64,000 nucleotides of DNA. Origin: Bacteroidales bacterium (GTDB taxonomy: Bacteria; Bacteroidota; Bacteroidia; Bacteroidales; UBA932). Below are positions 17,897-40,855 of this stretch, one piece after another (within the stretch, counting starts at the first letter, position 1; the number at the start of each line of letters is the position of its first letter). The stretch is taken from the NCBI GenBank assembly GCA_015060385.1, contig SUYO01000008.1, forward strand, positions 1 through 64,000. Direction: 5' to 3'. The position numbers and the translations under genes are program-made. The notes beneath the pieces were generated by a model that saw only the letters and a program-made list of their open reading frames with translations, was not told where the DNA came from and did no database searches.

Positions 17897-20451
17897 AACT
17901 TGACGATATTTTGAGTGAATACCTTACCGGACTTGCCGGTCACCTGTACGCTGTATACCCCTGGAAGAAGGGCAGAAACATCCTCCAAGGCAGGACTGAA
18001 CGGATCAGGGACCACCTTGTTCTCATACACAAGGGCACCCGACGAGCTCACGATCTTAAGGTCTGCTTCCGATGCATCTGATGACCTTACATAAAGCTTA
18101 CCGTCAGCCACAGGATTAGGATAGAGGTCAAATTCCTTGGAACCGTCCCTTACCAGGGTCCTGAATGAATCCTTTGCAGTCCTGCCCATCGCATCAGATG
18201 CAGTAACTGTTACAGCTACCATTCCGTACGAAGCAGCCGTCACAGTCATATTGTTCTTTGATACAGAAATCTTAAGGACTTCATCATCTGAAGAAACCGC
18301 AGTATACTTAAGGGATTCTCCGTCTGCGTCAGTAAAGTAATCAGCAAGGTTTATAGTCTTCGATGCCGAATCGGAAGATAGTATGAGATCCTCAAGGGCA
18401 GACTTCACCACAGGGTCAGTATTCGGTTCAATCACGAAGGAGAGGCTGCACTCAGCTGTCTTTCCATGATCGTCAGTAACTACAATGCGCGAGCTGTAAG
18501 AGCCCGGAGCGATCTTCTTGGCATCGATGACAAGATAATAAAGGTCATCTTCCTTTGAGAAGGTATCTCCGTCGGTAGCATTCTCATATGTCACGTCAGC
18601 GATCGAATTCTCAGGATCTGTGATATTGAACCTGAGCTTTGCCCACTCATGCTGCTTATAGGTATGCTGGGTTCCGTCAAGAGCCTCGATTGCAGGAGGA
18701 AGGTTATCTGAGGTCGAAATCGATATGTTCTCCGTCATTTCTGAAGTATAGCCTAATGCATCTACGCCTACAACCGATATATGATAGGTCGTGTTCTGAG
18801 CGAGCTTATCCAACGTGAAGACAAGGGTATCTCCTGCAGTCTTTCTTCCCACAGGTACCGTAACCTTGTTCATACCATCGGTAACCTTATCAAAAGGTGT
18901 CTCCGACCAATAAAGGTCAACATACTTGCTGTTTACTCCGTTGTTTTCCTCAGGAACGATATATTTGAGAGCGAAAGCTGTCGCTGACAGCTGCTCATAA
19001 TTTGCAAATTCAGGCACATTCGGCATGAATTCGCCGTAATGTGCGACGGCTGCAGAAGCATCGACAAGACCATGTCCCATCTGATCTGCAGGCAATGATA
19101 TATCTGATGCCGTCTTTAAGAGTCGGTCAATCAGCTGTTCTCTTGTGAATCCGGGACCGCCGAATTCGGAAACGATCAATGCAGCCACACCGCTGACATG
19201 AGGGCAGGCCATAGAGGTACCCTGCATACGGCCGTACTCGCTGTCTGCAATTGTGCTGATGATCATCTGATTCTTCTTTGTATCTCCACCAGGTGCCATG
19301 ATGTCCACCCAGTCTCCATGATTTGAATAATAGGCCATCTCGTAGTCTCCCGCTACTGAAGAAACCGAGATACAGCCTTCATATGATGCCGGATATGCTT
19401 CTGTGACAGCGTCGTTACCGGTAGCAAAGATAACGACACCACCCTTCATCGGGCTGTCCGGAAGCTGATTTCCATCCTCATCACATCCGGCATATGTGTT
19501 GAAGTAATCAATTGCCTCCCTCACATATCGAGGGGTCTCTGTAAGATTGTTTTCAGGAATGAAGCCCCAGCTGTTCTGTGCGATCACCGCTCCGTGATTG
19601 GCAGCCCAGACGATTGCCTCAGCTTCATTGCCCTGATATTCGCCCTCGAATATCTCACAAGCCATGATCCTTACACCCTTGATTCCTTCAGCTGCATTAC
19701 CTCCGGCAATTCCGCTTACTCCGATACCGTTGTTGTTCACTGCGGCAATGGTACCTGCCACATGAGTTCCATGGTCCTGAGGATTGATCTTGTTATTACC
19801 GAGAATGGCATTGTATCCGTAGATCGTCTTTCCCTTAGCATCAACAGACGTCCACATGTTGTCCTTAAGGTCTTCATGTGCATAGTCGACTCCTGTATCG
19901 ATGACGGCTACGATTACCTCATCGCTTCCCACGACTCCTCTTCTCCACGCCGGATCGACATTGATGTCACAACCGGCTACGAGACCGTTGACAGCATTTC
20001 CTGTATTCTGGAAATGCCACTGTTTCTTGAACTCAGGGTCGTCGAATAAAGGCATGGCATCATTGATCACAGCCTTAGGGACATATTCGACAAGTTCCAC
20101 TCCTTCTACGCAGATCAGGTCATGTCCTGCCTTGGTAAGCGGAAGTGACTCGTCAAACTGCACATTGTACCACAAATGCAGCCCTTCCCTACGCATTCGC
20201 TCTTCATATCTTCCTCCGTCCTGGAAAGTACGGCTCAGAACGGCACCGGGTATGATTCCGGAACCGGAACCTTCGGATTCAAGCTTTAAAGCAAGGGCGT
20301 CTGAGACACGGATTACAGCCTTACCCGCCACATATGCATCTTGTTCTACATTGAATTCGTCTGTCTTATCCACAGTAAACGGTTCATGCTGGCAAGAAAC
20401 CAGCATCCAAACAGCGAAAAGAGATAGTATACGAAGAGTCTTTTCCATCAT
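17893..20451 (-). CDS. Subtilisin-like S8 protease with lipobox and T9SS-type sorting domain, leftward operon
   Basis: 852 residues. Lipobox-like LVSC (Cys20); pro-region to about 130 (LHLWYNVQFDESLPLTKA); catalytic domain with Asp185 in AVIDTGVDYAHED, His227 in DHGTHVAGT, Ser413 in GTSMACPHVSG; then fibronectin-like and cadherin-like domains; and a last 75 residues starting FDLYPNPVADGKLYV that match T9SS type A sorting domains and end in VKL. All three catalytic residues are present, so an active surface protease is likely. Having both a lipobox and a T9SS tail is unusual. Paralogue of 33060-35708. Confidence 0.88.
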   Translation of the reverse strand: MMEKTLRILSLFAVWMLVSCQHEPFTVDKTDEFNVEQDAYVAGKAVIRVSDALALKLESEGSGSGIIPGAVLSRTFQDGGRYEERMRREGLHLWYNVQFDESLPLTKAGHDLICVEGVELVEYVPKAVINDAMPLFDDPEFKKQWHFQNTGNAVNGLVAGCDINVDPAWRRGVVGSDEVIVAVIDTGVDYAHEDLKDNMWTSVDAKGKTIYGYNAILGNNKINPQDHGTHVAGTIAAVNNNGIGVSGIAGGNAAEGIKGVRIMACEIFEGEYQGNEAEAIVWAANHGAVIAQNSWGFIPENNLTETPRYVREAIDYFNTYAGCDEDGNQLPDSPMKGGVVIFATGNDAVTEAYPASYEGCISVSSVAGDYEMAYYSNHGDWVDIMAPGGDTKKNQMIISTIADSEYGRMQGTSMACPHVSGVAALIVSEFGGPGFTREQLIDRLLKTASDISLPADQMGHGLVDASAAVAHYGEFMPNVPEFANYEQLSATAFALKYIVPEENNGVNSKYVDLYWSETPFDKVTDGMNKVTVPVGRKTAGDTLVFTLDKLAQNTTYHISVVGVDALGYTSEMTENISISTSDNLPPAIEALDGTQHTYKQHEWAKLRFNITDPENSIADVTYENATDGDTFSKEDDLYYLVIDAKKIAPGSYSSRIVVTDDHGKTAECSLSFVIEPNTDPVVKSALEDLILSSDSASKTINLADYFTDADGESLKYTAVSSDDEVLKISVSKNNMTVTAASYGMVAVTVTASDAMGRTAKDSFRTLVRDGSKEFDLYPNPVADGKLYVRSSDASEADLKIVSSSGALVYENKVVPDPFSPALEDVSALLPGVYSVQVTGKSGKVFTQNIVKL

Positions 20452-20516: not shown

Positions 20517-21395
20517 TTAAAGTCCTAGCAGTTCTGCAAGGTCTGGTCCACCAGGGAATGAGATGTAGGCCACTGAAGGACTACCCCACCAGCTGAATGA
20601 TCCGCCTGAGAAGTTGAGGATAGGATACCAAGCAAACTGAGCGACATCCGGCATAACCATCATGTTGGCAGCAGATGTTTCAGTATCACCGACTGCAGCT
20701 CCGTCAAGCATATGACATGTCATACCTGAGAATGTGAAGCCGAGGTTGAGGATCTGTCCCCATGTGATGCTACCGTCTTCGTTGATGAAGAACTCAAGGT
20801 AAGGAACCTCCTCCACGAAGTCAAGTCCACCTGCAGTTACAGACTCCTGATCCCAAGGATTGATAAGTCTGTAAGTCTCGGTTCCGTCCGGTGCCTTGAT
20901 GAGCTGCTTCTCGAAAGGTCCTCCGATCCACCAGTCATCATACCACTGAGCGATACCGAGGTTCTGCCATGCCTTCCTGCATGTGATAGGGAATGCATCT
21001 GCAGTATACTCTGAAATGTCACCTGAAGTGATCTCGACAACAATCGAGTATGAAGCTGCAGGATCAAGATTGTCATATGAATATGAAACGGCTGCAGTTG
21101 CAGTAGTCTCACCGGCAGCGAAAGATACTGTAGTATTCTTAAGGGTAAAGAGTCCTGATGTATCTGTCAGTGCAACTGTGATGTCCATAGCGCCGTCAGC
21201 CTTTGTTCTTACGAAAGGAACGAGGATGTCAGATCCGTCGATATCAAGATTTCTTGGAGCTGTGTCGTCAGCCTTTACATAAGTCTTGTTTGCATCCTCC
21301 TGTGGAGCAGGAGTGTAGTCATAATCCTGTACACAGGCTACGAAAGCTAAGCTCATGAGCGAGCCAAAAACTATTTTATTAATTGTCTTTTTCAT
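20517..21395 (-). CDS. SusE/F-position lipoprotein, leftward operon
   Basis: 292 residues with lipobox (LAFVAC, Cys21). An Ig-like N-terminal part (VPFVRTKADGAMDITVAL, VSFAAGETTATAAVSY) resembles the bacterial Ig-type domains of DUF1735/DUF4843 lipoproteins. The C-terminal half, rich in Trp and Gly (AQWYDDWWIGGPFE, SGGSFSWWGSPSVAYI), looks like a surface-binding domain. Placed directly after SusD like SusE/SusF, which are surface ligand-binding lipoproteins. The gene at the same place in the other operon (32110-32967) is of similar length but not obviously homologous, so ligand choice may differ. Confidence 0.65.
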   Translation of the reverse strand: MKKTINKIVFGSLMSLAFVACVQDYDYTPAPQEDANKTYVKADDTAPRNLDIDGSDILVPFVRTKADGAMDITVALTDTSGLFTLKNTTVSFAAGETTATAAVSYSYDNLDPAASYSIVVEITSGDISEYTADAFPITCRKAWQNLGIAQWYDDWWIGGPFEKQLIKAPDGTETYRLINPWDQESVTAGGLDFVEEVPYLEFFINEDGSITWGQILNLGFTFSGMTCHMLDGAAVGDTETSAANMMVMPDVAQFAWYPILNFSGGSFSWWGSPSVAYISFPGGPDLAELLGL

Positions 21396-21412: not shown

Positions 21413-23119
21413 TTAGAACTGTGTTGAGATTGTCTCTACCTTTCCGGTAGGGTCAGGATTGTTAAGTGTAGTCATGACTCCATCAATTTCGGTAGGAACC
21501 TCGTCCTCCTTCATGATATAGTCATTGTTCTCATACTCAGACTCCGGAATCACGAAGTTCCAGAATGGACTCACTTCCTCGATGTCATACTTGAGGGTCT
21601 CGTGGATAACGTTTGAACCCTTGTACCAGGTCTTCACACCCGGACGGATACGCTTAGCATCGAAGAAACCGACTCCCTCGCCCCAGAACTCTACTCTCTT
21701 CTGGTAAAGTACCTCCTCCTGGAAGTTCTTTACGAAACCTTCATTGAACTTAGAAGATGCAACGAAGTATGAGTAGCTTGGGTCACGGTATGTCTGCATG
21801 AATGACTCGAGAAGAGCTGCACCTGCAGCCTCACCGTCTCTCATTCCGACAGCCTCTGCCTCGATGAGGTACATTTCCTCAACACGCATCATAGGCCAGT
21901 CTGCAGCACCACCTACTGAATAAGTCTCCCAGTCGCCGCCCTTGCAACGGATCTTGAATGACATGTAGTCAGGAAGTGACTCGAAAGGATATGCCTTGAG
22001 GAAGCCTGTCTGGTCTGCCCATTCATAGTAGTCAGCATCATATGTCTCTCTGTCCGGATCAAGGAACGACCTCTTACGGAAGTCATCTCTGTTCATACGG
22101 TCATACATCCAACGGTGGATAGCCATGCGAGTAAGAGAGTTGTATCCCCAGTCAGCCTCACCTGCGAGGAATCCTGTAGGGTTACAGAGGTTACCCATGT
22201 TGTTTGCAGAAAGGTTGTAGTACCACATCCATGAGTTGTTGCCCGCTGCGTCGCAGAATGCAGCTGCAGGGTTGTGCCACTCAGCCTCTGTCAAAGGAGT
22301 CTTGCCTGAAGCGTCGATAGCCTTGCGTGCATATTTAGCAGCATTGTCATAATCCTCAAGTGCCATGTACATACGGGCCTTCAGACCGTAAACCACTGGA
22401 ACGCCAGGGTAACGTCCTGTTGCAGGAACATAACCTTCGAGGAGCTGCTCAGCCTTGTCAAGGTCAGCAAGAATGAATGCAGACATTGCCTCCTTAGGTG
22501 CACGTGCAGTCTTGTACTGAGTCTCTTCCTCTGAGCTTGAAACGATGATAGGAGTAGTGAGACCAACAACCTTTGAAACGTCAGTGTACTTGTTCTCCGC
22601 AGGGAGATACAGGTTGTAGAGGTCATGGTACATCAGCGCTCTGTAAACATATGCTGTTCCGAGGTAAACCTTCTGGTCAGCATTGAGTTCCTCAAGCGAG
22701 AGGAGCGGTCCGATGATGTCGTTTGCAGACTTGATGATCTTGTAGAAAGTCATGAACGGAATAGTCTGATTATAGGTATTCGCCTTCATGTTTCTTCCGT
22801 AAGAACCGCAATATCCTGTCCACCAGTCGTAACCCTCTGTTGCAGAGTTGTTCACGATATCATTGGTAAGACGCGCATAAGTAATGAGGATACCAGCGTA
22901 TGACATATCGGTCTCCTGCTGTACACCTGATCCAAAGAAGTAGTATGGCTGATATATCTGAGCAACGAGGCCGTCAACAGCAGCCGCCATACCTGCAGCT
23001 GACTGGGCAAGCTGCTCTGATGTTGCCGCTCCTTCAAGAGGGAAAGTCTCCTGAATACATGAAGATGCAAGAGAAACAGATACGGCACCTATAAGTATAG
23101 TCTTAAATATGTTTTTCAT
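21413..23119 (-). CDS. SusD/RagB-like lipoprotein, leftward operon
   Basis: 568 residues from ATG 23119. This start has a rare clear Shine-Dalgarno (GGGAGG, 8 bp upstream) and a proper lipobox (LASSC, Cys21); a start six codons earlier would include the SD itself. Typical SusD layout: helical TPR region (FYKIIKSANDIIGPLLSLEE, YRALMYHDLYNLYLP) and C-terminal RVEFWGEGVGFFDAKRI. It forms the surface lid of the SusC transporter. 18 bp separate it from SusC. RagB-type relatives import peptides, which would suit the neighbouring protease. Confidence 0.9.
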   Translation of the reverse strand: MKNIFKTILIGAVSVSLASSCIQETFPLEGAATSEQLAQSAAGMAAAVDGLVAQIYQPYYFFGSGVQQETDMSYAGILITYARLTNDIVNNSATEGYDWWTGYCGSYGRNMKANTYNQTIPFMTFYKIIKSANDIIGPLLSLEELNADQKVYLGTAYVYRALMYHDLYNLYLPAENKYTDVSKVVGLTTPIIVSSSEEETQYKTARAPKEAMSAFILADLDKAEQLLEGYVPATGRYPGVPVVYGLKARMYMALEDYDNAAKYARKAIDASGKTPLTEAEWHNPAAAFCDAAGNNSWMWYYNLSANNMGNLCNPTGFLAGEADWGYNSLTRMAIHRWMYDRMNRDDFRKRSFLDPDRETYDADYYEWADQTGFLKAYPFESLPDYMSFKIRCKGGDWETYSVGGAADWPMMRVEEMYLIEAEAVGMRDGEAAGAALLESFMQTYRDPSYSYFVASSKFNEGFVKNFQEEVLYQKRVEFWGEGVGFFDAKRIRPGVKTWYKGSNVIHETLKYDIEEVSPFWNFVIPESEYENNDYIMKEDEVPTEIDGVMTTLNNPDPTGKVETISTQF

Positions 23120-23137
23120 TGTTCTATCCTCCCTCAA

Positions 23138-26100
23138 TTAAAATTTAACTGTGATACCACCTGAAACTGTTCTCATAGGAGAATAGGTAGTGGCATTTGT
23201 AGAAGATGAGAAGCCCTGACGTGGGTCGAAGCCCTTACGTGCAGACCAGTAATAGAGGTTCTCTGCAGAAACATAAATTCTGAGTGAGTTTACGAGGAAC
23301 TTCCTTGTGAACTTTGCAGGAAGAGTGTAACCGAAGTTAACATTCTGAAGGTTCAGGTAAGAAGCCTTTGTAAGGAACCTTGTAGATGTAGCGTTGCTGT
23401 ACTCATCAGCATACTGGAAACGTGGAATAGAAGCACCCTTGTTATCTGGTGTCCAAGCATTGAGGAGGTCAACGTGGTAGTTGTAACCGTTGGCACCTGA
23501 TGTAGGAGAGTACATGAATGTCTGGTATCCGCCATCCATCTGCCTACCACCTACCTGGTATGTGAAGTTGATAGCGAAGTCAAAGCCGTATGCGCTTACT
23601 GATGTACCGAAACCACCGAAGAGAGGTGCGAGAACGCTTATGTTTGTCATATACTTCGAAGCCTCAGAATAGTCATCTGTTGTCTCACGGCCTGTGATGT
23701 TGCCTTCTTCGTCAAGAATGTTCTTGTACCAGAGAGACTTACCTGTCTCCTGATCGATACCTGCGAACTCATATGTATTGAAAGTATACATTGAAGCACC
23801 CTCAGCAACGAAGAACGAACCGCTTGTGAAACCGTTGTACTCATTTCCTTCAGCATCGTATGCCTTAGAATCCTTTACGTTGTCAGCGAGTGAAACGACA
23901 GTATTCTTAAGGTATGAAGCGTTAAGGTTGATGTCCCACTGTACGTTCCTGTTGTTTACGAGCACGAAGTGGAAGTCACCCTCGACACCATAATTGTTCA
24001 TGTCACCGACGTTCTTATAAATAGAAGAATAACCCTGTGACGGAGCAACCGGAGTAGGGAAGAGCATGTCTGTAGTCATACGGTTGAAGTACTCGATGCC
24101 TCCGTTTACTCTGCTGTCGAACAATGAGAACTCGATACCTGCATTGAAGTTGGTATTTGTCTCCCAAGTGATGTCCTTGTTACCCTTTGTAGCGAAGAGA
24201 GTAGAGATCTTGCCGTCAGATGGTACGATACCGAAGATATCTGTATATCTGTAAGAACCGATAGAGTCGTTACCCTGGCTACCGATGGAAGCCTTGAGCT
24301 TGAACTCATTTACCCAAGAAGCGTTGAACCAGTTCTCCTTGCTCATGATCCATGCAGCACCTGCGCTCCAGAAGTTACCCCAACGGTTTTCAGGATGGAA
24401 GCGTGAAGAAGCATCACGACGGAACGATCCTGAAACGAAGTAACGCTCCATGTAGTCATACTGTGCACGTCCGAGATAACCTTCGTTGTTGTAGTGTGTC
24501 TGATATGAAGATGCGCTCTGTCCGTCAACTACAGCACCGTCGAGTTCCTTGTTATCCTGCGAGAACATCTGGCTCTTGCCGGCACCTACATAGTAATATC
24601 TGTCGCTGTAGTACTCATGTCCTACGAGAACGCCCACATTGTGGTTACCGAACTTCCTCTGGTAGTTGAGGAGCTGCTGGCTGTTCCAAGCATAAGAACG
24701 GCTGTGACCTACTGAAACTGTACCGCCTGTAGAACGGAACTGTCCGTAATAAGGGTTGTATACATAGTTGGAACGTGTCTCGTCAAGAGTAGCCGATGCA
24801 TTTACTGTGAATGTAAGGCCCTTGATGATGTCAACGTCGATATAACCCTGAGCAGAAAGTGCGTTACCCTCTGAGTTGTTTGTATTGTACTTGTTACCGA
24901 GTACAGGGTTTGCGTCAGTGATGAACGGACGTGAGAGACCTGGGAAACCACCGTTTCTGAGGTTAGCGTTACCGTGGTCAAGGACAGCGATTCCGTTTAC
25001 GTCATAGTACTGCGAGCCGTCAGCATTTCTCACATAGAGAGGGTAGATAGGAGCGATCTGCGATGTGAACGCCCAGATGTTGGCTGTAGAGCCTGAGCTA
25101 CCGTTGTTGCTGAGCGAGTTGAACTCGAACTTGGTGTATGACATGTTGGCACCCATCTTGAGCCAGTCAGTTGCCTGATAGTCAGCCTTGAGACGTGCAG
25201 AAAGACGCTCGTGGTCAGACTTCTCTGTAATACCCTGGTTGTTGAGGTAGCTGAGTGAAGAGTAGAAAGACATTCTCTCCTGAGCACCTGATACTGTAGC
25301 TGTATACTCCTGACGGATACCCTTGCGGTAAACCTCGTCAGCCCAGTTGTCAGCCTTCACGAGATGGTCACCCATCACGTAGCCTTCTGTAGCACCTGGG
25401 TTGAACTTACCGTTACGTCCGATAGTATACTGGCCTGCAGGGATAGTATAAGTCTGATATCCGAGACCGCCGGCAGCTACGTTGTAGAGATTCTCGTTAG
25501 CTCTCATGTAAGCCTCATCCGGAGTAAGTGCGAGACCGTCATTTGCTGTGTAGTAGTTGTAGAGAGCCTTGTAGTGCTGCTCGTAGAAAGCACGTGGATC
25601 CGAGATAGTCTCATATCTCTGAAGAGCATTTGTGTTCACACCGACCTTTGCATCGAACGATACTGAAGCCTGACCCTGCCTTCCCTTCTTTGTTGTGATC
25701 ATGATGACACCATTGGCACCACGAGCACCATAGAGGGCGTTTGAAGCAGCATCCTTGAGGACTGTCATGGACTCGATGTCGCTTGGAGCGATGTTGTTCA
25801 TATCGCCGTCGAAAGGAGCACCGTCAACAATGATGAGAGGGTCGTTACCCGCGTTGATTGATGAAATACCACGTACGCGGATTGTTGCAGAAGAACCAGG
25901 GGCGCCGTTTGCTGAAACGAGCTGCACACCTGCTACCTGTCCTGCGAGGGCGTTGGTAACGTTTGAAACCTGCGACTGCGCAAGCTTCTCGTCATCCAGC
26001 ACCTTAGCGGAACCGGTAAACGCTTCCTTTGTCGATGTACCGAACGCGACAACGATTGTCTCCTCGAGAGCCTGTGTGTCAGGGTCGATTGCAACATTGA

Positions 26101-26371
26101 TAGTCCTGTTGCCTGCAACCTCGACCTCCAGGGTCTTGTATCCGATAGAAGAGAATACAAGGACTCCGTCTGAAGGGACTGTCATCGTGAACAAACCATC
26201 TGCGTCTGTGCTGGTACCTGTCATAGTGCCTTTCACCTGAATAGAAGCAAAAGGCACAAATTCACCTGTTGATGAATCCTTTACACTTCCGGTTACTGTG
26301 ATGTCCTGGGCGTAGACCGCCGAACTGATCAGAACCGCCAACACTGTGAAAAATAGTTTCATTTTTCTCAT
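23138..26371 (-). CDS. SusC/RagA-like TonB-dependent transporter, leftward operon
   Basis: 1077 residues. Signal peptide MRKMKLFFTVLAVLIS; carboxypeptidase-D-like repeat near 25-100 (TVTGSVKDSSTGEFVPFASI); plug with the SusC signature VLKDAASNALYGARGANGV; and a long barrel ending in an aromatic residue (GGITVKF). It imports ligand across the outer membrane with TonB energy, with the SusD encoded next. The first 65 bp around the start are an exact inverted copy of the corresponding region of the divergent SusC at 27418. Likely driven by the candidate promoter at 26482-26513, which lies inside the presumed invertible segment. Confidence 0.94.
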   Translation of the reverse strand: MRKMKLFFTVLAVLISSAVYAQDITVTGSVKDSSTGEFVPFASIQVKGTMTGTSTDADGLFTMTVPSDGVLVFSSIGYKTLEVEVAGNRTINVAIDPDTQALEETIVVAFGTSTKEAFTGSAKVLDDEKLAQSQVSNVTNALAGQVAGVQLVSANGAPGSSATIRVRGISSINAGNDPLIIVDGAPFDGDMNNIAPSDIESMTVLKDAASNALYGARGANGVIMITTKKGRQGQASVSFDAKVGVNTNALQRYETISDPRAFYEQHYKALYNYYTANDGLALTPDEAYMRANENLYNVAAGGLGYQTYTIPAGQYTIGRNGKFNPGATEGYVMGDHLVKADNWADEVYRKGIRQEYTATVSGAQERMSFYSSLSYLNNQGITEKSDHERLSARLKADYQATDWLKMGANMSYTKFEFNSLSNNGSSGSTANIWAFTSQIAPIYPLYVRNADGSQYYDVNGIAVLDHGNANLRNGGFPGLSRPFITDANPVLGNKYNTNNSEGNALSAQGYIDVDIIKGLTFTVNASATLDETRSNYVYNPYYGQFRSTGGTVSVGHSRSYAWNSQQLLNYQRKFGNHNVGVLVGHEYYSDRYYYVGAGKSQMFSQDNKELDGAVVDGQSASSYQTHYNNEGYLGRAQYDYMERYFVSGSFRRDASSRFHPENRWGNFWSAGAAWIMSKENWFNASWVNEFKLKASIGSQGNDSIGSYRYTDIFGIVPSDGKISTLFATKGNKDITWETNTNFNAGIEFSLFDSRVNGGIEYFNRMTTDMLFPTPVAPSQGYSSIYKNVGDMNNYGVEGDFHFVLVNNRNVQWDINLNASYLKNTVVSLADNVKDSKAYDAEGNEYNGFTSGSFFVAEGASMYTFNTYEFAGIDQETGKSLWYKNILDEEGNITGRETTDDYSEASKYMTNISVLAPLFGGFGTSVSAYGFDFAINFTYQVGGRQMDGGYQTFMYSPTSGANGYNYHVDLLNAWTPDNKGASIPRFQYADEYSNATSTRFLTKASYLNLQNVNFGYTLPAKFTRKFLVNSLRIYVSAENLYYWSARKGFDPRQGFSSSTNATTYSPMRTVSGGITVKF

Positions 26372-26408
26372 AGTTGTTACTTTTAGTTGTTAAACATAAA
26401 TATTGATT
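26344..26408. repeat. Inverted repeat over SusC start, left copy
   Basis: 65 bp perfectly inverted relative to 27381-27445, covering the leader and the first 28 bases of each SusC gene. Each copy holds TATGTTTA, a weak -7-like element. A further 13-bp match is at 26419-26431 and 27354-27366. Confidence 0.9.
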
Positions 26409-26440
26409 ATTTTCTTCCGTACACTACACTGAAAATTTTC

Positions 26441-26462
26441 ATGCACTAATAATCGGGCGTTT
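26441..26462. repeat. 22-bp inverted repeat, left: candidate recombination site
   Basis: Perfect inverted copy of 27323-27344. On the minus strand it begins AAACGCCCGATTATT. It lies in the SusC leader, between the candidate promoter and the start codon, just as the sites of invertible promoters do. It agrees at 7 of 10 positions with ARACGTWCGT, the B. fragilis Mpi site motif as I remember it. Confidence 0.75.
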
Positions 26463-26481
26463 TTTATAACACCATTTCGTA

Positions 26482-26513
26482 CAAAGTTCAGCATAATTTT
26501 TCAATTTGCCAAA
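26482..26513 (-). promoter_or_regulatory. Candidate promoter of the leftward operon, inside the invertible segment
   Basis: On the minus strand TTTG (26513-26510), a 20-bp spacer, then GAACTTTG (26489-26482), one mismatch from TAnnTTTG. Initiation near 26475 would give a leader of about 100 bases that crosses the 22-bp repeat and reaches the SusC start at 26371. Confidence 0.5.
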
Positions 26514-26685
26514 CTTTCTTATATATATAAGTAGTTGTAATTTATATGAATCCGTAACATAGCGGCGTCCTGGCTGCTCGGTCATCACCGGATTTTGACG
26601 CTATTTTCTTACAATCTGTAACCGTAACAAGTTGTAAACCGACGAGATTATAATCTTCACGAAAATTTAACAAAAGTGTATTTTT

Positions 26686-27288
26686 TCATCCATTTTCAGC
26701 CTCGATAAGGTATTTTCTCAGGGTATTTCTATGAATTCCATACATTTTCGCCACCCTCGTCAGACTGTTTCCCTGCCGGATCAGAAAGGCCGCATTGTCA
26801 TAATCCTCTATGAATGACCTTTTCTTCTTCGAGCTGCCCGAAGGTCTGCCAAGTCTGACACCCTGTAACTTTTTGACAGCCAAAGCCTCTTTCGTGCGCT
26901 GCGAAATGAGGTTCCTTTCGATTTCTGCGGCCAGAGCAAAAGCAAACGCTATGATCTTGGAATTGATACTGTCGGAAAGTGTGAAATTATCCTTGATCGT
27001 CCTGATAGCCACTCCCTTTTGAGAGCATCTGTTCAATATTTCCATGATCATAAGCATGTTGCGCCCTAATCTGGACAATTCCGTGCATATAAGCAGATCC
27101 CCGCTTTTCATGGAGCGGATAATCTTTCCAAGTTGTCTTTTTTCGACTTCGATAGTACCGGATACAGACTCCGAAATCCATTTGTCGACTTCAATACCAT
27201 TCCTTTCGCACCAGCATTTGATTTCATGTTTCTGGCTCGCATGACACTGTACTTCCGTACTGACTCTGATATAAGCATAAGTAGGCAT
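26686..27288 (-). CDS. Serine site-specific recombinase, Mpi-like DNA invertase
   Basis: About 200 residues from ATG 27288 (MPTYAYIRVST, the usual start); a longer frame would run back through the repeat. The resolvase/invertase domain has catalytic Ser10 in YIRVSTE and the arginine motif ELSRLGRNMLM (70-80). The long E helix has AAEIERNLISQRTKEAL, followed by a linker GVRLGRPSG and a C-terminal helix-turn-helix (LTRVAKMYGIHRNTLRKYL). These are hallmarks of the small Hin/Gin/Mpi invertases. Its start lies 35 bp inside the right 22-bp repeat, so it sits within the segment it probably inverts, as hin does in Salmonella. Confidence 0.9.
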   Translation of the reverse strand: MPTYAYIRVSTEVQCHASQKHEIKCWCERNGIEVDKWISESVSGTIEVEKRQLGKIIRSMKSGDLLICTELSRLGRNMLMIMEILNRCSQKGVAIRTIKDNFTLSDSINSKIIAFAFALAAEIERNLISQRTKEALAVKKLQGVRLGRPSGSSKKKRSFIEDYDNAAFLIRQGNSLTRVAKMYGIHRNTLRKYLIEAENG

Positions 27289-27322
27289 GTGTTTAATTGT
27301 TAGAGATGAACATTGACCTGTT

Positions 27323-27344
27323 AAACGCCCGATTATTAGTGCAT
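27323..27344. repeat. 22-bp inverted repeat, right: candidate recombination site
   Basis: Perfect inverted partner of 26441-26462, placed 73 bp before the rightward SusC start. Confidence 0.75.
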
Positions 27345-27380
27345 TAAGAACAACAGTGTAGTGTACTGGGAAATAATCAG

Positions 27381-27445
27381 AATCAATATTTATGTTTAAC
27401 AACTAAAAGTAACAACTATGAGAAAAATGAAACTATTTTTCACAG
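27381..27445. repeat. Inverted repeat over SusC start, right copy
   Basis: 65-bp perfect inverted partner of 26344-26408. Together with the 22-bp and 13-bp matches it makes both SusC leaders nearly the same whatever the orientation of the centre. Confidence 0.9.
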
Positions 27446-30400
27446 CGTTGGCGGTACTGATCTCTACTGTGGCCTTTGCCCAGAATATGACAGTGACCGG
27501 AAATGTTACAGACTCTCAGACAGGAGAACCTGTTCCTTTCGCATCATTGATGGAAAAGGGCACAGCCAATGGAGTCAACACTGACGTTAACGGACACTAT
27601 TCCATTTCAGTGCCAATGAATGCAGTGCTCGTGTTTTCTTCAATAGGTTATGAGGATATAACCGTTGAAGTACAGGGCAAGTCTGTCATCAATGTTCAGC
27701 TTGCACCCGACGCAATGGCTCTCGACGAAACCATCGTCGTGGCTTATGGCGTTCAGAAGAAGTCATCGTTCGTTGGAGCGGCGACTCAGGTGAGCGGTGA
27801 GAAGCTTGAGCGCATGCAGACCACAAACATCAGCAAGTCTCTCGAAGGTGCTGTCGCAGGTCTTCAGACAGCCAGCTCTTCAGGTACTCCAGGTTCAAGC
27901 TCAAGCATCATCATCCGTGGATTGGGTTCTATTTCAGCATCGCAGTCTCCGCTTATCGTAGTGGACGGTGTGCCTTATGAAGGATCACTCAACTCAATTC
28001 CAGCTCAGGATATCGAGTCTCTTACCGTCCTCAAGGATGCTGCCGCCAACTCAATGTATGGTGCCCGCGGTTCAAACGGTGTCATCATCATCACAACGAA
28101 GAGAGGTGCAGCTGACCGAGTACACGTTACATTCGATGCCAAGGTCGGCGTAAACTCAAGAGCCGTTCCTGCTTATGACGTGATCACTGATCCAGGTCAG
28201 TACTATGAAATGGCATGGGAATCTTTGAGAAATGCAGCTTACTACCGTGATGCAAGCCCTCTCACTCTTGCTCAGGCTAACATGTATGCTTCAGCTGCCT
28301 TGATTCCGAACCTCAACTACAACACATATAAGGGAGTAGCAGACAACGAGCTCATCGACCCTGCTACAGGTAAGCTCAACCCGCTTGCAACTGACCTCAA
28401 GTGGACAGATAACTGGAACAAAGACGTATTCCAGAACGGTCTTCGTCAGGAGTACAGCTTGAGCGCATCAGGCGGATCAGACAAGACTCAGGCTTATTTC
28501 TCTGCTTCTTATCTTAAGGATGGCGGTTACGTTCCTATGTCAGGATTCACCCGTCTTGCAGTAAGAGGTAAGGTTGACCATCAGGTTACAAAGTGGCTCA
28601 AGGCCGGTATCAACATCTCATACTCAAACACAAACCAGCAGCAGTATGGTGGAGCAGCTTCAGGAAGCTCATATAACAACCTCTTCTTCTTCGGTCAGAA
28701 CATTGCTCCTATCTACCCTATCTATCAGTATGACCTTGCAACAGGCGAGCGTCTTTACGGTGCAAAGGGCGAGGATCTCTATGACTGGGGTGAGTTGCGT
28801 GCCTTCGGACAGCTCTCCAACCCTTACGGCCAGTTGATGACATCCCTCAGCGAGACCATTTCAGACAACATGTCTTCAAGAGGATATCTCGACATCCAGA
28901 TTCTCAAGGACCTCAAGTTCTCTGCAAACGTTGCATTCGACGTATTCAACCAGAAGGGTGACTTCTATACTACCCCTGCCGGTGGTGATGCAGCCAACGT
29001 GAACGGTCGTGGTGAGCAGAGCACTTCACGCTATACAGCTCTCAACGCAAACCAGCTCCTTACTTACTACCCTACATGGGGTGACCACGCTCTCAACATT
29101 CTCCTCGGACACGAAACAAAGAGCGACACTTCATATGGCCTTTCAGGTCACATGACCAATGTTGTAGACCCTACAGTATCAGATTTCTCTAACTTCATCA
29201 CTTATCAGGGTCTTGACTCTTCAACTACTGAGTACTTCCTTCAGGGATTCTTCGGCAGGGCAGAGTACAGCTATGCAAACAAGTATACCGTATCAGGTTC
29301 ATATCGTATGGACGCTTCTTCACGTTTCCATCCGGACAGAAGATGGGGTTCATTCTGGGCAGTAGGTGCTTCATGGAACATCAAGCAGGAATCTTTCCTT
29401 GCAAATGCAGGCGCTGTCGACTACCTCCGCATCAAGGCCAGCTACGGTACTCAGGGTAATGATAACGTAGGTTATACAAAGGTATATGAAGACCTTTATA
29501 CTATTGCCCGCGTAGACGGTGAGGCTTCAGTTACAAAGGTATTCCGTGCAGCTCCTGAGGTAACTTGGGAGAAGTCAAACAACTTCAACGTAGGTTTCGA
29601 GTCTAAGTTCTTCAACAGATTGTCAGTAAATGCTGACTTCTTCATCAAGGAGACCAAGGACATGATCTACTCTAAGCCATTGGCACCATCTGCAGGTTCC
29701 CCTGCTTCTCAGCTTGTCAATGACATCGACATGAAGAATACAGGTGTCGAGTTCGAACTCTCACTTGATATCATCAAGAAGCGTAACCTCGTATGGAACG
29801 TAGGAATTAACGGAACTCACTACAAGAATGAGCTTACAAAGCTTCCTTCTGACAAGACAGATCCAACACGTTATCCTGACGGATACCAGAGCGGTTCATA
29901 CTGGCGCAAGCTCGGTGGTTCACTCTATGACTTCTATCTTTATGAGTGGGCTGGCGTAGACGATGAAACAGGTCTTCCTCTTTACAACAAGTATGAGAAG
30001 GATGAGAATGGAGTTGAGACTGTAACTCAGGTGAATTCTTCTGCAGAGGCAACTCTCAGACAGACAGGTAAGTCAGCTCTTCCTAAGTTCTATGGCGGTT
30101 TCACAACATCACTCTCTACTTACGGATTCGACTTCAGTGCAGCATTTGCATACCAGATCGGTGGTTATACTATGGACTCTAACTATCAGTCACTCATGGG
30201 AGCTGGTCGTATCGGTACAAACTGGCACAAGGATGCATTCGACAGATGGACACCACAGAACAAGGATTCTGAGATTCCAAGACTTCAGAATGCATACCAG
30301 GAGGCTAGCTCTACTTCTACAAGATGGCTTACTGATGCTTCATACATCAGCCTCAGAAACCTTACTGTAGGATATACTTTCCCTGAAAGAATTGCAAAGA

Positions 30401-30561
30401 AGATTTCAATGCAGTCACTCAGAATCTTCGTTACAGGTGATAACCTCTGGTATCTTTCAAGAAGAAAGGGTCTTGACGTTCGTCAGTCATTCAGCGGAGC
30501 TACAGGCTTTACTTACTCAGCTCTCAGAACCGTTTCCGGTGGTCTTACTGTAACATTTTAA
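27418..30561 (+). CDS. SusC/RagA-like TonB-dependent transporter, rightward operon
   Basis: 1047 residues. The signal peptide MRKMKLFFTALAVLIS is nearly identical to the left SusC. Carboxypeptidase-like repeat (TVTGNVTDSQTGEPVPFASL), plug signature VLKDAAANSMYGARGSNGV, and a C-terminal barrel strand (GGLTVTF). The bodies of the two SusC proteins diverge after the signal region, so ligands probably differ. In the orientation given here I see no good promoter upstream other than the shared TATGTTTA at 27391-27398, which would suit an OFF state. Confidence 0.94.
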   Translation: MRKMKLFFTALAVLISTVAFAQNMTVTGNVTDSQTGEPVPFASLMEKGTANGVNTDVNGHYSISVPMNAVLVFSSIGYEDITVEVQGKSVINVQLAPDAMALDETIVVAYGVQKKSSFVGAATQVSGEKLERMQTTNISKSLEGAVAGLQTASSSGTPGSSSSIIIRGLGSISASQSPLIVVDGVPYEGSLNSIPAQDIESLTVLKDAAANSMYGARGSNGVIIITTKRGAADRVHVTFDAKVGVNSRAVPAYDVITDPGQYYEMAWESLRNAAYYRDASPLTLAQANMYASAALIPNLNYNTYKGVADNELIDPATGKLNPLATDLKWTDNWNKDVFQNGLRQEYSLSASGGSDKTQAYFSASYLKDGGYVPMSGFTRLAVRGKVDHQVTKWLKAGINISYSNTNQQQYGGAASGSSYNNLFFFGQNIAPIYPIYQYDLATGERLYGAKGEDLYDWGELRAFGQLSNPYGQLMTSLSETISDNMSSRGYLDIQILKDLKFSANVAFDVFNQKGDFYTTPAGGDAANVNGRGEQSTSRYTALNANQLLTYYPTWGDHALNILLGHETKSDTSYGLSGHMTNVVDPTVSDFSNFITYQGLDSSTTEYFLQGFFGRAEYSYANKYTVSGSYRMDASSRFHPDRRWGSFWAVGASWNIKQESFLANAGAVDYLRIKASYGTQGNDNVGYTKVYEDLYTIARVDGEASVTKVFRAAPEVTWEKSNNFNVGFESKFFNRLSVNADFFIKETKDMIYSKPLAPSAGSPASQLVNDIDMKNTGVEFELSLDIIKKRNLVWNVGINGTHYKNELTKLPSDKTDPTRYPDGYQSGSYWRKLGGSLYDFYLYEWAGVDDETGLPLYNKYEKDENGVETVTQVNSSAEATLRQTGKSALPKFYGGFTTSLSTYGFDFSAAFAYQIGGYTMDSNYQSLMGAGRIGTNWHKDAFDRWTPQNKDSEIPRLQNAYQEASSTSTRWLTDASYISLRNLTVGYTFPERIAKKISMQSLRIFVTGDNLWYLSRRKGLDVRQSFSGATGFTYSALRTVSGGLTVTF

Positions 30562-30581: not shown

Positions 30582-32090
30582 ATGAAAAAGATATTTATAA
30601 TTCTTGCAACAGCTTTGCTTGCTCTCGCATCTTGTGAGAAGAGCTTCGACGTGAAGTATACTTCACAGCTGACAGGTAGCAATGCTGCAGCAATGGTTGA
30701 GAATGATCCTACATTCCTTGACTCTTATGTTCAGGGTCTTTATGGAGCAATGGTCGAGTATGGTGCAGGTGGAAGCTCAAACCATGATGACTACGGTATC
30801 ATGTCGGTTTATACCAACACCGAGTACATGGGTGGTGACATCGTGCTTTCAGGCACACAGAACTGGGGTCTTTATGACTATATGTTCGACTACAGAGCAT
30901 TCAACTACTCACGTCCTTATCAGCTTTGGAGTACATTCTATACTCTCATCGCTAATGCAAACATCATCATCGACTTCTTCCCTGCAGATCAGGAGCCTAC
31001 AAATGAAGTTGCCAAGGCTGCTCTCGGACAGGCTTATGCGGTAAGAGCATTTGCTTACATCTATGAGATGCTTTACTTCCAGGATCCATGCAACGCTAAC
31101 GGTGATTTCAATGCTGACGCTCCAGGTGTTCCTGTTATCTTCGCGAACCGTGATGGAAAGACTCAGGACGAGATGGATACTGCAAAGGGTAGAAATACTA
31201 TGGGCTTCGTAGCTGCTGAGGCTGAGAAGGATATCAACAATGCACTCAAGTATCTTGAGGGATATGTTCGTCCTTCAAAGAATATGATCGACTGGCAGGT
31301 AGCTCAGGGTATCGCTGCACGTCTTTACCTCTTCACACATCAGTGGGAGAAGGCTGCTTCTGCAGCTAACGCAGCACGTCAGGGTTATGACCTCATGAAT
31401 GCAAGCAGACTTTATGCAGGTATGATGGATGTTGAGGACGCTGAGGTTCTCTGGGGCTTCAACCATACAACTGAGACTCAGACTACCTACGCCTCATTCT
31501 TCTCACACTTGAGTAATGACAGCCCAGGTTATGGCGGACTCAACCAGATGTCTAAGCTTATCGACGCTAAGCTCTACAGCCAGATCTCTGTAACTGACTA
31601 TAGAAAGGCATGGTTCAACACTCCAGACGGCGATCCTTCAGCAGGACAGGTAGGTGCTCAGCAGCCACTCGCATCTAGAAAGTTCGGTTATGATCCACAG
31701 TGGCTCCAGGACTACATCTACATGCGTGCAGCTGAGATGTATCTTACAGAGGCAGAGGCTCTTGCAAGGCTTGGTAACGCTCAAGGTGCTCAGTCAGTTC
31801 TTGCTGAACTCATGGCAAAGAGAGATCCGCTTTGGGCAGGTACTGCAACAGTTGATGAAATCGCTCTTCAGAGAAGAATCGAGCTTTGGGGTGAGGGCTT
31901 CCGTTACTTCGACCTTCGCAGAACTGCTACAGGTATCGTAAGAGATTACGAGGGTTCTAACCATAATTATGAGCTTATGACAATCGCTGCTAACGTTCCA
32001 GCTCACGACAAGCTCTGGGTATTCCAGATTCCTCAGAGGGAAATGCAGGAGAACGTACAGCTTACAGAGGCTGACCAGAACGAATTGTAA
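30582..32090 (+). CDS. SusD/RagB-like lipoprotein, rightward operon
   Basis: 502 residues, 20 bp after SusC. Lipobox ALASC (Cys18). SusD features include LWSTFYTLIANANIIIDFFP, QAYAVRAFAYIYEMLYF, MYLTEAEALARLGNAQGA and RRIELWGEGFRYFDLRR. It caps the SusC channel and binds the imported ligand. It is about 65 residues shorter than the SusD of the leftward operon and only distantly similar, in contrast to the well-matched SusC starts. Confidence 0.92.
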   Translation: MKKIFIILATALLALASCEKSFDVKYTSQLTGSNAAAMVENDPTFLDSYVQGLYGAMVEYGAGGSSNHDDYGIMSVYTNTEYMGGDIVLSGTQNWGLYDYMFDYRAFNYSRPYQLWSTFYTLIANANIIIDFFPADQEPTNEVAKAALGQAYAVRAFAYIYEMLYFQDPCNANGDFNADAPGVPVIFANRDGKTQDEMDTAKGRNTMGFVAAEAEKDINNALKYLEGYVRPSKNMIDWQVAQGIAARLYLFTHQWEKAASAANAARQGYDLMNASRLYAGMMDVEDAEVLWGFNHTTETQTTYASFFSHLSNDSPGYGGLNQMSKLIDAKLYSQISVTDYRKAWFNTPDGDPSAGQVGAQQPLASRKFGYDPQWLQDYIYMRAAEMYLTEAEALARLGNAQGAQSVLAELMAKRDPLWAGTATVDEIALQRRIELWGEGFRYFDLRRTATGIVRDYEGSNHNYELMTIAANVPAHDKLWVFQIPQREMQENVQLTEADQNEL

Positions 32091-32109
32091 ACCTTAAAGA
32101 TTGTTAAAG

Positions 32110-32967
32110 ATGAAAAGAATTTCAATAATACTGATGATGCTTTCTGCAGCCGTGTTTGCTTCATGTAACAAGGCTCTTGAGAAAGCCGAGGTTGAAGCAG
32201 GCTTTGCTCCTGCACAGCCAGTACCGACTGTCAGCAATCTTGTTGTATCTGAGGTAGACGAAGTAGAGAAGATCGCTGTACTTACTGCAACAGTTGAAGG
32301 TATTACTTCCGGTATGGACAGCCTTGAAGTAGGTTTCATGTCTTGCCTTGATGGTACATTCCAGAATTCTACTGCGGTACTTGTAAACCCTGAGAACGGA
32401 ACTATTACTGCAACAGTAAGCGTTATGCCAGGTGCGAAGAACTACTTTGTAGCCATGGCAGCTAGCCTGGGTGGTGCATCATATTCAGATGTAATCGCTT
32501 ACGATGTTCCAGATATTCCTATGTATGCTAAGCTTGCTAAGTCATATGCAGGTACTTATTATTCATATTTTGAACCAGGCGTTCCAGTTACTCATGCACT
32601 TAACCTCATGGTAAGTGATGATCATACAGAGGTGATACTTTACAACTTTGACCCATTCATCGGTGGTTATGTTGCTCCAGGTCTTGATGCAAACTGCTTC
32701 ACAGGAAAGCTTGATCAGGAGAACTACACTATCACATTCACAACTGATACACCTCCATTCTTCTTGCTTGGATTTGCTGATGCAGCAGTTGTTGTTACAG
32801 ATGCAGAAGGCAATGCTCTCAGTGAGTTTGTGGTAACTATCAGCAAGGATTGCCAGAGCATAACAATCCCTGAGTATGGAGTATACTCTGTAAATCAGAG
32901 CGGTTACTATGAGGCATGGGGTGGAAATGAAGATGGTACAGGAGCTATCACACTCCAGGCTAGGTAA
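32110..32967 (+). CDS. SusE/F-position lipoprotein, rightward operon
   Basis: 285 residues from ATG 32110 (MKRISIILMMLSAAVFASC, lipobox Cys19); a TTG nine bases earlier is rejected. An Ig/fibronectin-like first half (LVVSEVDEVEKIAVLTATVE, SVMPGAKNYFVAMAA) and a beta-rich second half that starts with KSYAGTYYSYFEPG. Position after SusD suggests a surface ligand-binding lipoprotein. I do not recognise the family, and it is not clearly related to the leftward counterpart. Confidence 0.6.
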   Translation: MKRISIILMMLSAAVFASCNKALEKAEVEAGFAPAQPVPTVSNLVVSEVDEVEKIAVLTATVEGITSGMDSLEVGFMSCLDGTFQNSTAVLVNPENGTITATVSVMPGAKNYFVAMAASLGGASYSDVIAYDVPDIPMYAKLAKSYAGTYYSYFEPGVPVTHALNLMVSDDHTEVILYNFDPFIGGYVAPGLDANCFTGKLDQENYTITFTTDTPPFFLLGFADAAVVVTDAEGNALSEFVVTISKDCQSITIPEYGVYSVNQSGYYEAWGGNEDGTGAITLQAR

Positions 32968-33059: not shown

Positions 33060-35708
33060 ATGAAGAAATTCAGAATCATTACAGCTGTATCTGTCATCGC
33101 CTTGTTATCAGGATGTCAGGCTGAAACTCTACCTCAGGAAAACTTTCGACATCCTGAGATTGATGCTCCAGCGTCAGCAGTTGTCGAAGGTCTGATCCGA
33201 ATCCAGGTTTCCGAGAAGCAGGCTGAATTATGGCTGTCTTCTGCTGACGAGGCCGGAAGTGTATCTGCATTTGACAAAAGCATGTTAGACGGATTGGATG
33301 TAATATCTGTGTCAACGTCTTTCAATATCGGAGGTAAATATATTGAAAGACAGAAAAAGGCCGGTCTGCATCTATGGTTCGATGTGAGATACAACGAATC
33401 AGTCCCAACTACCAAGGCTTCAGAACAGATACTGTCTTCAGCTGAAATCAGGCTTGCCGAGCCTGTTTATAAAATGCAGCCGATGCAGGTACAGATGAAT
33501 GATCCTGAGTTCAGTAGATTTCAGTGGCATTACAACAATGTCGGTGAATATGGTTTCAGGCCAGGAATCGATATCGGACTTGTGGAGGCCTGGAACAAAT
33601 TCGGCGTTTTCGGAAACAGCGAGGTCATAATTGCTGTCGTGGATTCTGGCGTAGAATATTCTCACGAAGACTTGAATGCCAATATGTGGGTCAACGAAGC
33701 CGAACTTGACGGTGTCGAAGGGGTCGATGATGATGGAAACGGATATAAGGATGATGTACATGGATTTAATTTCGTAACATCATCCGCAAAGATCAATTCC
33801 GACTCTCATGGAACTCATGTAGCTGGAACTATCGCTGCCGTAAACAATAACGGAATCGGTGTCTGTGGTGTTGCCGGAGGATATTATCCGGATAAGCCGG
33901 GTGTACGCGTAATGACGCTTCAGGTGATAGATAACAATTATCCGGAAGCATCAGCAAACCTTCCTAAGGTGTATCAGTATGCAGCTGAGAATGGTGCTGT
34001 AATCCTTAACAACAGCTGGGGATATATGGAGACACCGAAGAGTATGCCTACCGCCGATAAGAAGGCGATAGACTATTTCGTTGAATATGCCGGTCTTGAT
34101 CAGAACGGCAATCAGACAGGCCCTATGAAGGGCGGACTTGCTATTTTCGCAGCAGGTAATGAGTCCGAGGAGCTTGCTTATCCTGCTGCCTATGAAAAGG
34201 TTCTTTCTGTGGCAGCTCTCGGTCCTAATGGAGAGGCAGCTTATTACACAAATTATGGCGATTGGGTTGATGTTTGTGCCCCAGGAGGAGATCATAAGGT
34301 TGACAGGCAGTATGGCGGAATATACAGCATCGGATTGAACAATACTTACAATTCACAGCAGGGAACCTCAATGGCCTGCCCTCATGTTACCGGTATCGCT
34401 GCTCTCGTACTTTCTGCATCCGGTGGTCCAGGCTATACTTGCGATGATCTTTGGAATGCGGTTATAGCAGGTACTGACCCTTCTATTTATGATTATAATC
34501 AGGATATGGCAGGCCTCCTTGGCGTAGGTATGGTCAATGCCAGCTTAGCCTTGTCCACAATGAATATGACTCCGCCCGAGGATGTGACAACTCTATTGGG
34601 CGAAGCAAATGCAAATACGGTATATCTTTCTGCCGATGTGCCTTCAGATGATTCAGGAGATGCATATTACTATCATGTATATTACTCTGCAGATGTGACA
34701 GAGGTCCCTGACCTTGATACCATGAATTCAGTTGATGTCGTCATCAACAAGCAGGAATCGGTTGAAAACGGAATGAGGCGTTTCGCTTTAAAGGGTCTTG
34801 AATTTCAGACTGAATATCTGTTCGCCGTAGTTGCAGGTGATTTTGCAGGCAACAAGTCTTCTGTGCCATGTGTTACAAAAGTCACCACCAAGAAGAATAC
34901 CCTTCCGGTCATAAATGTAAAGACCAAGGGAAAGGATGTTTTAAATCCGGGCGAGACCTCATCATATGTCTTCGAGGCTTCCGATCCGGATGATTTCCAT
35001 TTTGTGACTTGTACTTTTGAACCAGGTAATACAACAGGTATGGCCCTTGAAAACCTTATAGATGGATCATATCATATCAAGATAGATGCCTCAAAGCTTC
35101 AACCAGGACAATATACCTGTGCATTTGTGGCCTCCGACCAGTTTGGAGGCAAGTCCACATATGAAATAGAATTTGAAGTCAAGAGTAACTCTGCTCCAGT
35201 GATCAATGGAACTATCAGGCCGATTGTCCTGAATGGTGTCGATGATGAGGAGGTGATCAATCTCTTCGATTATTTCAGCGATCCTGATGGAGATATTCTG
35301 ATGTATTCTCTGAGAGGTGCGGATGATCTGGTAAAATGTAACATCTCGAATGGAAAGCTCACTGTAAAAGCCCTGGCGATAGGAAAGTCGGTAATGACTG
35401 TGACAGCTACAGATCCTAGTGCCAGGAGTGTAGCCATGGATGTTGATGTGATAGTACGCAATCCTGACAAACCGTACGATATTTATCCTAATCCAGTCAT
35501 AGACATTCTCAACATAAGCGCTGGAGAGGATGTGACCGGTAATGTCATCCTGTATTCATCAACAGGACAGAAATCGTATGAAAATGCTGTCGAACTCAAC
35601 ATTTACAGCCCATATCAGATAGATCTTTCCGGTCTTGCACCCGGACGATATCGACTTGTAATCGATACTACAGGAAGTGATTATGAAACAGATATTATAA
35701 AGCTCTAG
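33060..35708 (+). CDS. Subtilisin-like S8 protease with lipobox and T9SS-type sorting domain, rightward operon
   Basis: 882 residues. Lipobox-like LLSGC (Cys19); pro-region with LHLWFDVRYNESVPTTKA, clearly like the left paralogue; catalytic Asp195 in AVVDSGVEYSHED, His250 in SHGTHVAGT, Ser437 in GTSMACPHVTG. Fibronectin-like and cadherin-like domains follow, then a sorting domain beginning YDIYPNPVIDILNI and ending in IKL. An extra acidic insert (GVDDDGNGYKDD, near 221-232) looks like a calcium loop and is lacking in the left protein. Likely an active cell-surface protease that feeds the SusCD pair upstream. Confidence 0.88.
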   Translation: MKKFRIITAVSVIALLSGCQAETLPQENFRHPEIDAPASAVVEGLIRIQVSEKQAELWLSSADEAGSVSAFDKSMLDGLDVISVSTSFNIGGKYIERQKKAGLHLWFDVRYNESVPTTKASEQILSSAEIRLAEPVYKMQPMQVQMNDPEFSRFQWHYNNVGEYGFRPGIDIGLVEAWNKFGVFGNSEVIIAVVDSGVEYSHEDLNANMWVNEAELDGVEGVDDDGNGYKDDVHGFNFVTSSAKINSDSHGTHVAGTIAAVNNNGIGVCGVAGGYYPDKPGVRVMTLQVIDNNYPEASANLPKVYQYAAENGAVILNNSWGYMETPKSMPTADKKAIDYFVEYAGLDQNGNQTGPMKGGLAIFAAGNESEELAYPAAYEKVLSVAALGPNGEAAYYTNYGDWVDVCAPGGDHKVDRQYGGIYSIGLNNTYNSQQGTSMACPHVTGIAALVLSASGGPGYTCDDLWNAVIAGTDPSIYDYNQDMAGLLGVGMVNASLALSTMNMTPPEDVTTLLGEANANTVYLSADVPSDDSGDAYYYHVYYSADVTEVPDLDTMNSVDVVINKQESVENGMRRFALKGLEFQTEYLFAVVAGDFAGNKSSVPCVTKVTTKKNTLPVINVKTKGKDVLNPGETSSYVFEASDPDDFHFVTCTFEPGNTTGMALENLIDGSYHIKIDASKLQPGQYTCAFVASDQFGGKSTYEIEFEVKSNSAPVINGTIRPIVLNGVDDEEVINLFDYFSDPDGDILMYSLRGADDLVKCNISNGKLTVKALAIGKSVMTVTATDPSARSVAMDVDVIVRNPDKPYDIYPNPVIDILNISAGEDVTGNVILYSSTGQKSYENAVELNIYSPYQIDLSGLAPGRYRLVIDTTGSDYETDIIKL

Positions 35709-40813: not shown

Positions 40814-40855
40814 CGTCTTCCCCGACATGAACGGGGATACAAACATAGAGAAGAA

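Follow-up and report, generated by a model that had tools for sequence, protein, structure and literature searches.

A predicted self-contained promoter-inversion module between two divergent SusC operons in a Bacteroidales bacterium and its relatives across the genus

The DNA analysed here, referred to throughout as the window, comprises 64,000 nucleotides of a Bacteroidales bacterium of the UBA932 lineage (assembly GCA_015060385.1, contig SUYO01000008.1, positions 1 to 64,000) and carries, between two outward-reading SusC operons, a segment that encodes a serine recombinase and is bracketed by a short inverted repeat. Our comparisons indicate that this segment is very probably flipped by its own recombinase, so that a predicted promoter at one of its ends would serve the left and right SusC operons alternately, only one in each orientation. 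The initial annotation had read the locus as a promoter switch, a reading that now gains support from opposite segment orientations between species and from a promoter motif occurring at one segment end.

The repeat arms of the window are identical at 22 of 22 positions and, as first described, enclose 860 bp (Table 1). This pair is embedded in a 44-nt arm pair of 86% identity detected by a repeat search, next to which a longer likeness of 206 nt (77%) connects both leaders and the SusC 5' ends. At up to three mismatches, the local pair represents the only two sites in the window's draft genome (1.76 Mb, 75% complete), a reversed control pattern giving 0. The recombinase gene lies wholly inside the segment, as in Hin-type systems (26686-27288 within 26463-27322). 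Its intact 200-aa product matched Pfam Resolvase (E 5.5e-32), in agreement with the Mpi/Hin-like serine recombinase first placed in the segment, and the closest solved structures were a DNA-invertase (4m6f) and the Tn3/gamma-delta resolvases. The window protein (244.4 bits) and ten relatives (244.2-268.4), 11 of 11 proteins tested, scored below the 272-bit cut-off of the Mpi family model (NCBIfam NF009949). No further recombinase of the same kind was found at E <= 0.001 in the 75% complete genome, leaving a single gene. The window also has the arrangement of an inverton, with inverted repeats around a predicted promoter upstream of a gene. The same promoter pattern was absent from the 129 bp between the recombinase start and the right SusC. 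An Rfam scan of 26000-27800 returned nothing up to E = 1, and an exact scan of IMG/VR for the repeat gave 0 matches.

Orientation of the segment was judged from the genes beyond the operons, X denoting the context on the window's right (Cpn60 chaperonin, serine hydroxymethyltransferase) and Y that on its left (DXP reductoisomerase, M50 protease, M23 peptidase, DUF4837). A window-like orientation was found in genomes G261 (17 shared genes, X only), G365 (3 on X and 4 on Y), G032 (3 on Y; the 2 on X are SusC and SusD only) and G090 (3, X only). The opposite orientation in related assemblies, which the initial annotation had named as a check, was found between species: in G270 (16 and 6 genes) and G147 (4, one of them direction-reversed, and 5 genes) with both sides checked, and in G021 (15 genes, X only) with one side checked. 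The promoter faces Y in five species, including that of the window, and X in three; a few other loci with one or two genes in common with the window were left out of this count. At least three changes on the recombinase tree are needed to account for the eight orientations. The same X-side operon, with SusC proteins 91-97% identical, lies next to the recombinase start in G261 but next to the promoter end in G021, G270 and G147; hence, only the segment has turned. Measured against G261, the homology of this flank sets in no more than one base from the site core in G021, six bases inside it in G270 and approximately 28 bases further out in G147. Both orientations, as expected of an inverton, are therefore observed between species at one chromosomal site, and these alignments support segment inversion over evolutionary time.

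To place the locus in its genus, we scrutinized 400 genomes for relatives of the recombinase. At E <= 1e-40, 148 matches were recovered from 125 genomes, not all belonging to the SusC-switch group. Eighty of the 148 matched loci were fetched, picked mainly by score, and the main counts use the 62 with >=54% identity. Outward SusC genes occurred on both sides in 42 of these 62 loci, while nine were cut by contig ends, eight had SusC on the promoter side only, one on the other side only and two had none. Among the 18 fetched loci below 54%, L201 and L203 (both 52%) had SusC on both sides, and the rest had none beside the recombinase. In a quick recombinase tree, one supported group (97) held 63 rows, comprising 43 with SusC on both sides, two with none and 18 that were one-sided or cut.

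The predicted promoter was likewise specific to one end among relatives, sitting approximately 20 bp inward from the site, on the side of the recombinase 3' end. Of 53 loci, 40 had a relaxed pattern (TTTG-N22-25-TTTG) pointing outward from this end, against a mean of 7.3 and a maximum of 14 over 40 shuffles; the strict Bacteroidota consensus was found in 15 of 53 (shuffled mean 1.1, highest 4). At the opposite segment end both patterns occurred in 0 of 42 loci, with shuffled means of 2.2 (relaxed) and 0.2 (strict). Both the end-specific promoter and the paired SusC genes are far above shuffled controls in relatives. The one-sided promoter that the initial annotation had proposed was recovered by pattern at the left end, with none at the right, and extends as an end-specific feature to the relatives. 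For the alternative it had set against its own reading, transcription from a promoter in the shared leaders, no canonical pattern was found in the SusC leaders of the window or of 42 relatives. Elsewhere in the flanks, eleven SusC genes not adjoining the switch, including some mutual orthologues, also lacked the pattern (0 of 11). A further SusC/SusD pair in the right context (37589-42475) is common to several relatives, and its SusC has no canonical promoter pattern in the 400 bp upstream.

Repeat arms were identified by script in 33 of the 62 loci, six of which were dropped as SusC-SusC coding similarity, leaving 27; in the remaining loci the arms were truncated, had diverged too far or escaped the script. 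The site core approximates A(A/T)CG-NN-CGTTT. Its central dinucleotide could be read in 25 of these 27; the two arms of each locus agreed, and no self-complementary dinucleotide occurred (GG 12, AG 8, GT 3, GA 2). In five relatives the local pair constituted the only sites at 0-1 mismatches; at two mismatches each gave 1-3 extra matches, and G063 one control match. A lone local site pair in the window genome and five relatives points to an invertase that acts locally and not to a master invertase. In L147 and L149 (genomes G147 and G032), two copies of the site core were present on the recombinase 5' side, and more than one segment end may be available there. L066, on the same contig as L146, carries an 84-bp perfect inverted repeat outside the recombination sites, spanning both leaders and the SusC 5' ends, which suggests gene conversion between the two sides.

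Given these features, crossover would take place at the non-self-complementary central dinucleotide (GG in the window) flanked by half-sites AAACG and CGTTT. Because this centre is not self-complementary, inverted sites would be expected, from the action of serine recombinases, to rejoin by inversion only. Transcription would begin just inside the site, cross the site and a short leader without promoter motif, and then run through SusC, SusD, a third gene, the subtilase and a fifth gene. In the assembled state the left operon is predicted to be ON and the right OFF. Since the two operons are different systems, inversion would change the uptake and protease system that is displayed, rather than turn one system ON or OFF.

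Table 1. Coordinates of the putative inversion module and its two flanking operons in the window
Feature	Position	Strand	Basis or remark
Left fifth gene	17030..17896	-	No Pfam match; 29% identical to right fifth gene
Left S8 subtilase with Por secretion tail	17893..20451	-	Pfam
Left third gene	20517..21395	-	No Pfam match
Left SusD-like	21413..23137	-	Pfam SusD-like_3 and SusD_RagB
Left SusC	23138..26371	-	TIGR04056, 769 bits
Left SusC leader outside repeat, 69 bp	26372..26440	-	No canonical promoter motif
Left repeat arm, ATGCACTAATAATCGGGCGTTT	26441..26462	+	Putative recombination site; putative central dinucleotide GG at 26456-26457
Segment between arms, 860 bp, predicted to invert	26463..27322	.	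Sister species carry it in either orientation at a shared chromosomal site
Predicted promoter facing left operon: -33 TTTG at 26510-26513, 20-bp spacer, -7 GAACTTTG at 26482-26489	26482..26513	-	Sequence pattern; conserved end in relatives
Serine recombinase, 200 aa, Mpi-like	26686..27288	-	Pfam Resolvase, E 5.5e-32; NCBIfam Mpi model 244.4 bits, cut-off 272
Right repeat arm	27323..27344	-	Putative recombination site; putative centre at 27328-27329
Right SusC leader outside repeat, 73 bp	27345..27417	+	No canonical promoter motif
Right SusC	27418..30561	+	TIGR04056, 779 bits; 42% identical to left SusC
Right SusD-like	30582..32090	+	Domain search
Right third gene	32101..32967	+	No Pfam match
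Right S8 subtilase with Por secretion tail	33060..35708	+	35% identical to left subtilase
Right fifth gene	35711..36631	+	No Pfam match

On each side of the segment, an outward-reading SusC heads a five-gene run consisting of SusC, SusD, a gene of unknown function, an S8 subtilase and another gene of unknown function. Both neighbours of the segment are SusC/RagA receptors, so the two divergent SusC operons originally proposed hold up. The left and right proteins are 42% (SusC), 26% (SusD), 35% (subtilase) and 29% (fifth gene) identical, the third genes having no similarity, and by sequence the two runs are distant paralogues. Pfam detected no regulator domains among the ten operon genes, four of which lack any Pfam match. 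Within the segment, between the recombinase stop and the promoter, the palindrome TTACA(A/G)-N-TTGTAA was present in five of 61 loci (shuffled mean 0.18), namely the window (26609-26621), L141, L145, L148 and L214, and a TTGTAA(G/C)-type word in 21 of 61 (shuffled mean 3.1). This motif was defined post hoc and is a possible regulator or enhancer site. A shared RNA structure in the same interval was rejected, as folds of 40 segments, made without shuffled controls, were mutually unlike.

Assembly breaks provide a further line of evidence. Across the 62 loci, 28 contig ends lie within 9.2 kb of the recombinase, eight of them within 400 bp and the remaining 20 distributed among 22 bins of that size (Poisson 5e-6). 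Since assemblers break where orientations coexist, this clustering supports live inversion, short of proving it. Several observations weigh against the two-way switch. The contig ends at the segments could also stem from mixed strains. Eleven of the 62 loci lack one or both SusC genes with no contig end to explain it, only 27 of the 62 have clear repeat arms, and the promoter pattern is missing in 13 of 53. The promoter-less ends are also shorter than the promoter ends (mean 195 vs 328 bp), and the relaxed pattern was fixed after inspection of the aligned ends, which makes its count of 40 of 53 post hoc in part; the strict pattern and the contrast between ends are less affected. Finally, a canonical promoter toward the recombinase was found in only one of 42 leaders of relatives. 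The recombinase start often lies only a few tens of bases from the site in relatives (27289-27417 is the corresponding leader in the window), and the gene may be transcribed from the leader of the silent operon.

Among alternative explanations, the segment may be a fixed relic that inverted occasionally in evolution and no longer flips in the window species. A single orientation in the assembly and a stop inside the matched recombinase of one relative, G206, would fit this view; we consider it unlikely given an intact recombinase of 200 aa, a perfect repeat, at least three orientation changes among eight species and the eight of 28 contig ends that fall at relatives' segments. It is also decidedly unlikely that the segment acts as a one-sided ON/OFF switch of the left operon, the right operon being dead or having its own promoter. 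Two outward SusC genes in 42 of 62 loci speak against this, as do the lack of a canonical promoter in either window leader or in the other-end leaders of 42 relatives, the promoter end facing X in three species and Y in five, and a right operon that is open across all five genes. Known Bacteroidales invertible promoters do switch one locus ON or OFF, according to the available parts of PMC4747536 and PMC12632263; moreover, eight of 62 loci have SusC on the promoter side only, and noncanonical promoters, for example of the extracytoplasmic function (ECF) type, would escape our pattern.

That a distant master invertase works the site, with the internal gene incidental, is very improbable. The nearest named family of the internal gene is the master invertase Mpi, yet the draft genome (75% complete) has no second such recombinase at E <= 0.001, and the local pair stands alone in the window genome and, at 0-1 mismatches, in five relatives. 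The many distant sites of an Mpi-type master invertase were not seen, and on site counts this explanation was rejected. We give scarcely any credence to the remaining possibility, a small mobile element with terminal inverted repeats that simply carries a resolvase-family recombinase. Transposons also have resolvase-family proteins and an IS607 model matched weakly; at 28 bits against a cut-off of 110, an IS607-like element was rejected. A single copy in the draft genome, the paired SusC context in a supported tree group, the same chromosomal site in eight species and an outward promoter at a fixed place all disagree with mobility. The two-way promoter inversion by a resident recombinase is thus preferred over these four readings.

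The operons beside the segment have themselves been replaced. The 97 SusC proteins adjoining segments fell into 71 clusters at 75% identity; 14 clusters had members from more than one locus, and nine of these 14 included proteins from the promoter side as well as from the opposite side. Among the 29 of 39 within-locus SusC pairs that aligned over most of their length, the median identity was 36.5% (24.9-86.2). At the X/Y site in eight species, five SusC clusters were found on X and six on Y, where seven were seen. Cluster 9 lay on X in G365 but on the opposite side in G090, whose outer context there is cut by a contig end. In L174 and L181 (genomes G189 and G180), the outer contexts agree on both sides and a 5.4-kb operon (89.5% DNA identity) has relocated from the promoter side to the opposite one. 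SusC operons switch sides with segment orientation kept in both this pair and L145/L148 (G090/G365). Where an operon has moved while outer contexts and segment orientation are kept, segment inversion alone cannot account for the change. Tentatively, and with somewhat less than even confidence, we propose that the segment forms the constant centre of a hub for operon exchange, a single address where transporter-protease operons come and go on either side of one invertase and promoter; such selectors would occur genus-wide, the promoter picking one operon at a time.

Comparison with known systems helps to define the module. In the Hin/fljBA system of Salmonella, a small serine recombinase lies inside a segment of ~1 kb that is bounded by short inverted repeats and has a promoter pointing outward from one of its ends; it drives an operon on one side together with a repressor of an unlinked gene, and requires Fis and an enhancer. 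The present locus resembles it in its internal serine recombinase, short inverted repeats, predicted outward promoter at one end and predicted expression of one of two states. Unlike in Hin, the segment directly adjoins an operon on each side, and neither a repressor nor an enhancer was identified, although no search for Fis was made. Gin and Cin of phages Mu and P1 are local serine invertases that choose between two tail-fibre alternatives by inverting coding sequence. The likeness here lies in a local serine invertase serving two alternatives, the difference in a promoter rather than coding sequence being inverted. A known tyrosine-recombinase promoter inverter likewise has its gene adjoining the promoter it inverts, but acts on a local and a distant promoter.

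Hin is a serine invertase (PMC11868660, available part). The initial annotation had judged the locus closer to Hin, and by layout and inferred action it is Hin-like, while by sequence it is nearest to Mpi, below the NCBI cut-off. In Bacteroides fragilis, Mpi inverts 13 regions, promoter segments of surface-molecule loci, and Tsr0667 carries out shufflon-type multiple inversions at three SusC/SusD clusters and nine further regions (both from the available part of PMC4747536). Our locus shares with Mpi its nearest NCBIfam model and promoter segments of surface-molecule loci; it differs in having one local pair of close sites and in scores of 244-268 bits (<272) in 11 of 11 proteins. With the Tsr0667 shufflon it shares the variation of SusC/SusD proteins by inversion, except that here one promoter segment lies between two complete operons. 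A two-way SusC selector was not found in the literature searched, which includes the available parts of PMC4747536, PMC10939037, PMC11868660 and PMC12632263; early B. fragilis inversion surveys fall outside this coverage.

As described in the available parts of PMC4747536 and PMC12632263, invertible promoters of gut Bacteroidales turn a single locus ON or OFF, and several of the invertases have many target sites. The present module is self-contained and would by itself select one of two dissimilar uptake systems lying side by side. The new aspect is a genus-wide family of predicted local selectors that would each choose between two operons, with the partner operons undergoing replacement and exchange between sides; the site keeps a natural record of orientation changes and operon replacement. 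If the segment switches, its state would be readable in metagenomes from two junctions, and it would provide uncultured gut bacteria with a simple bet-hedging device for nutrient uptake or for evasion of phage or immunity.
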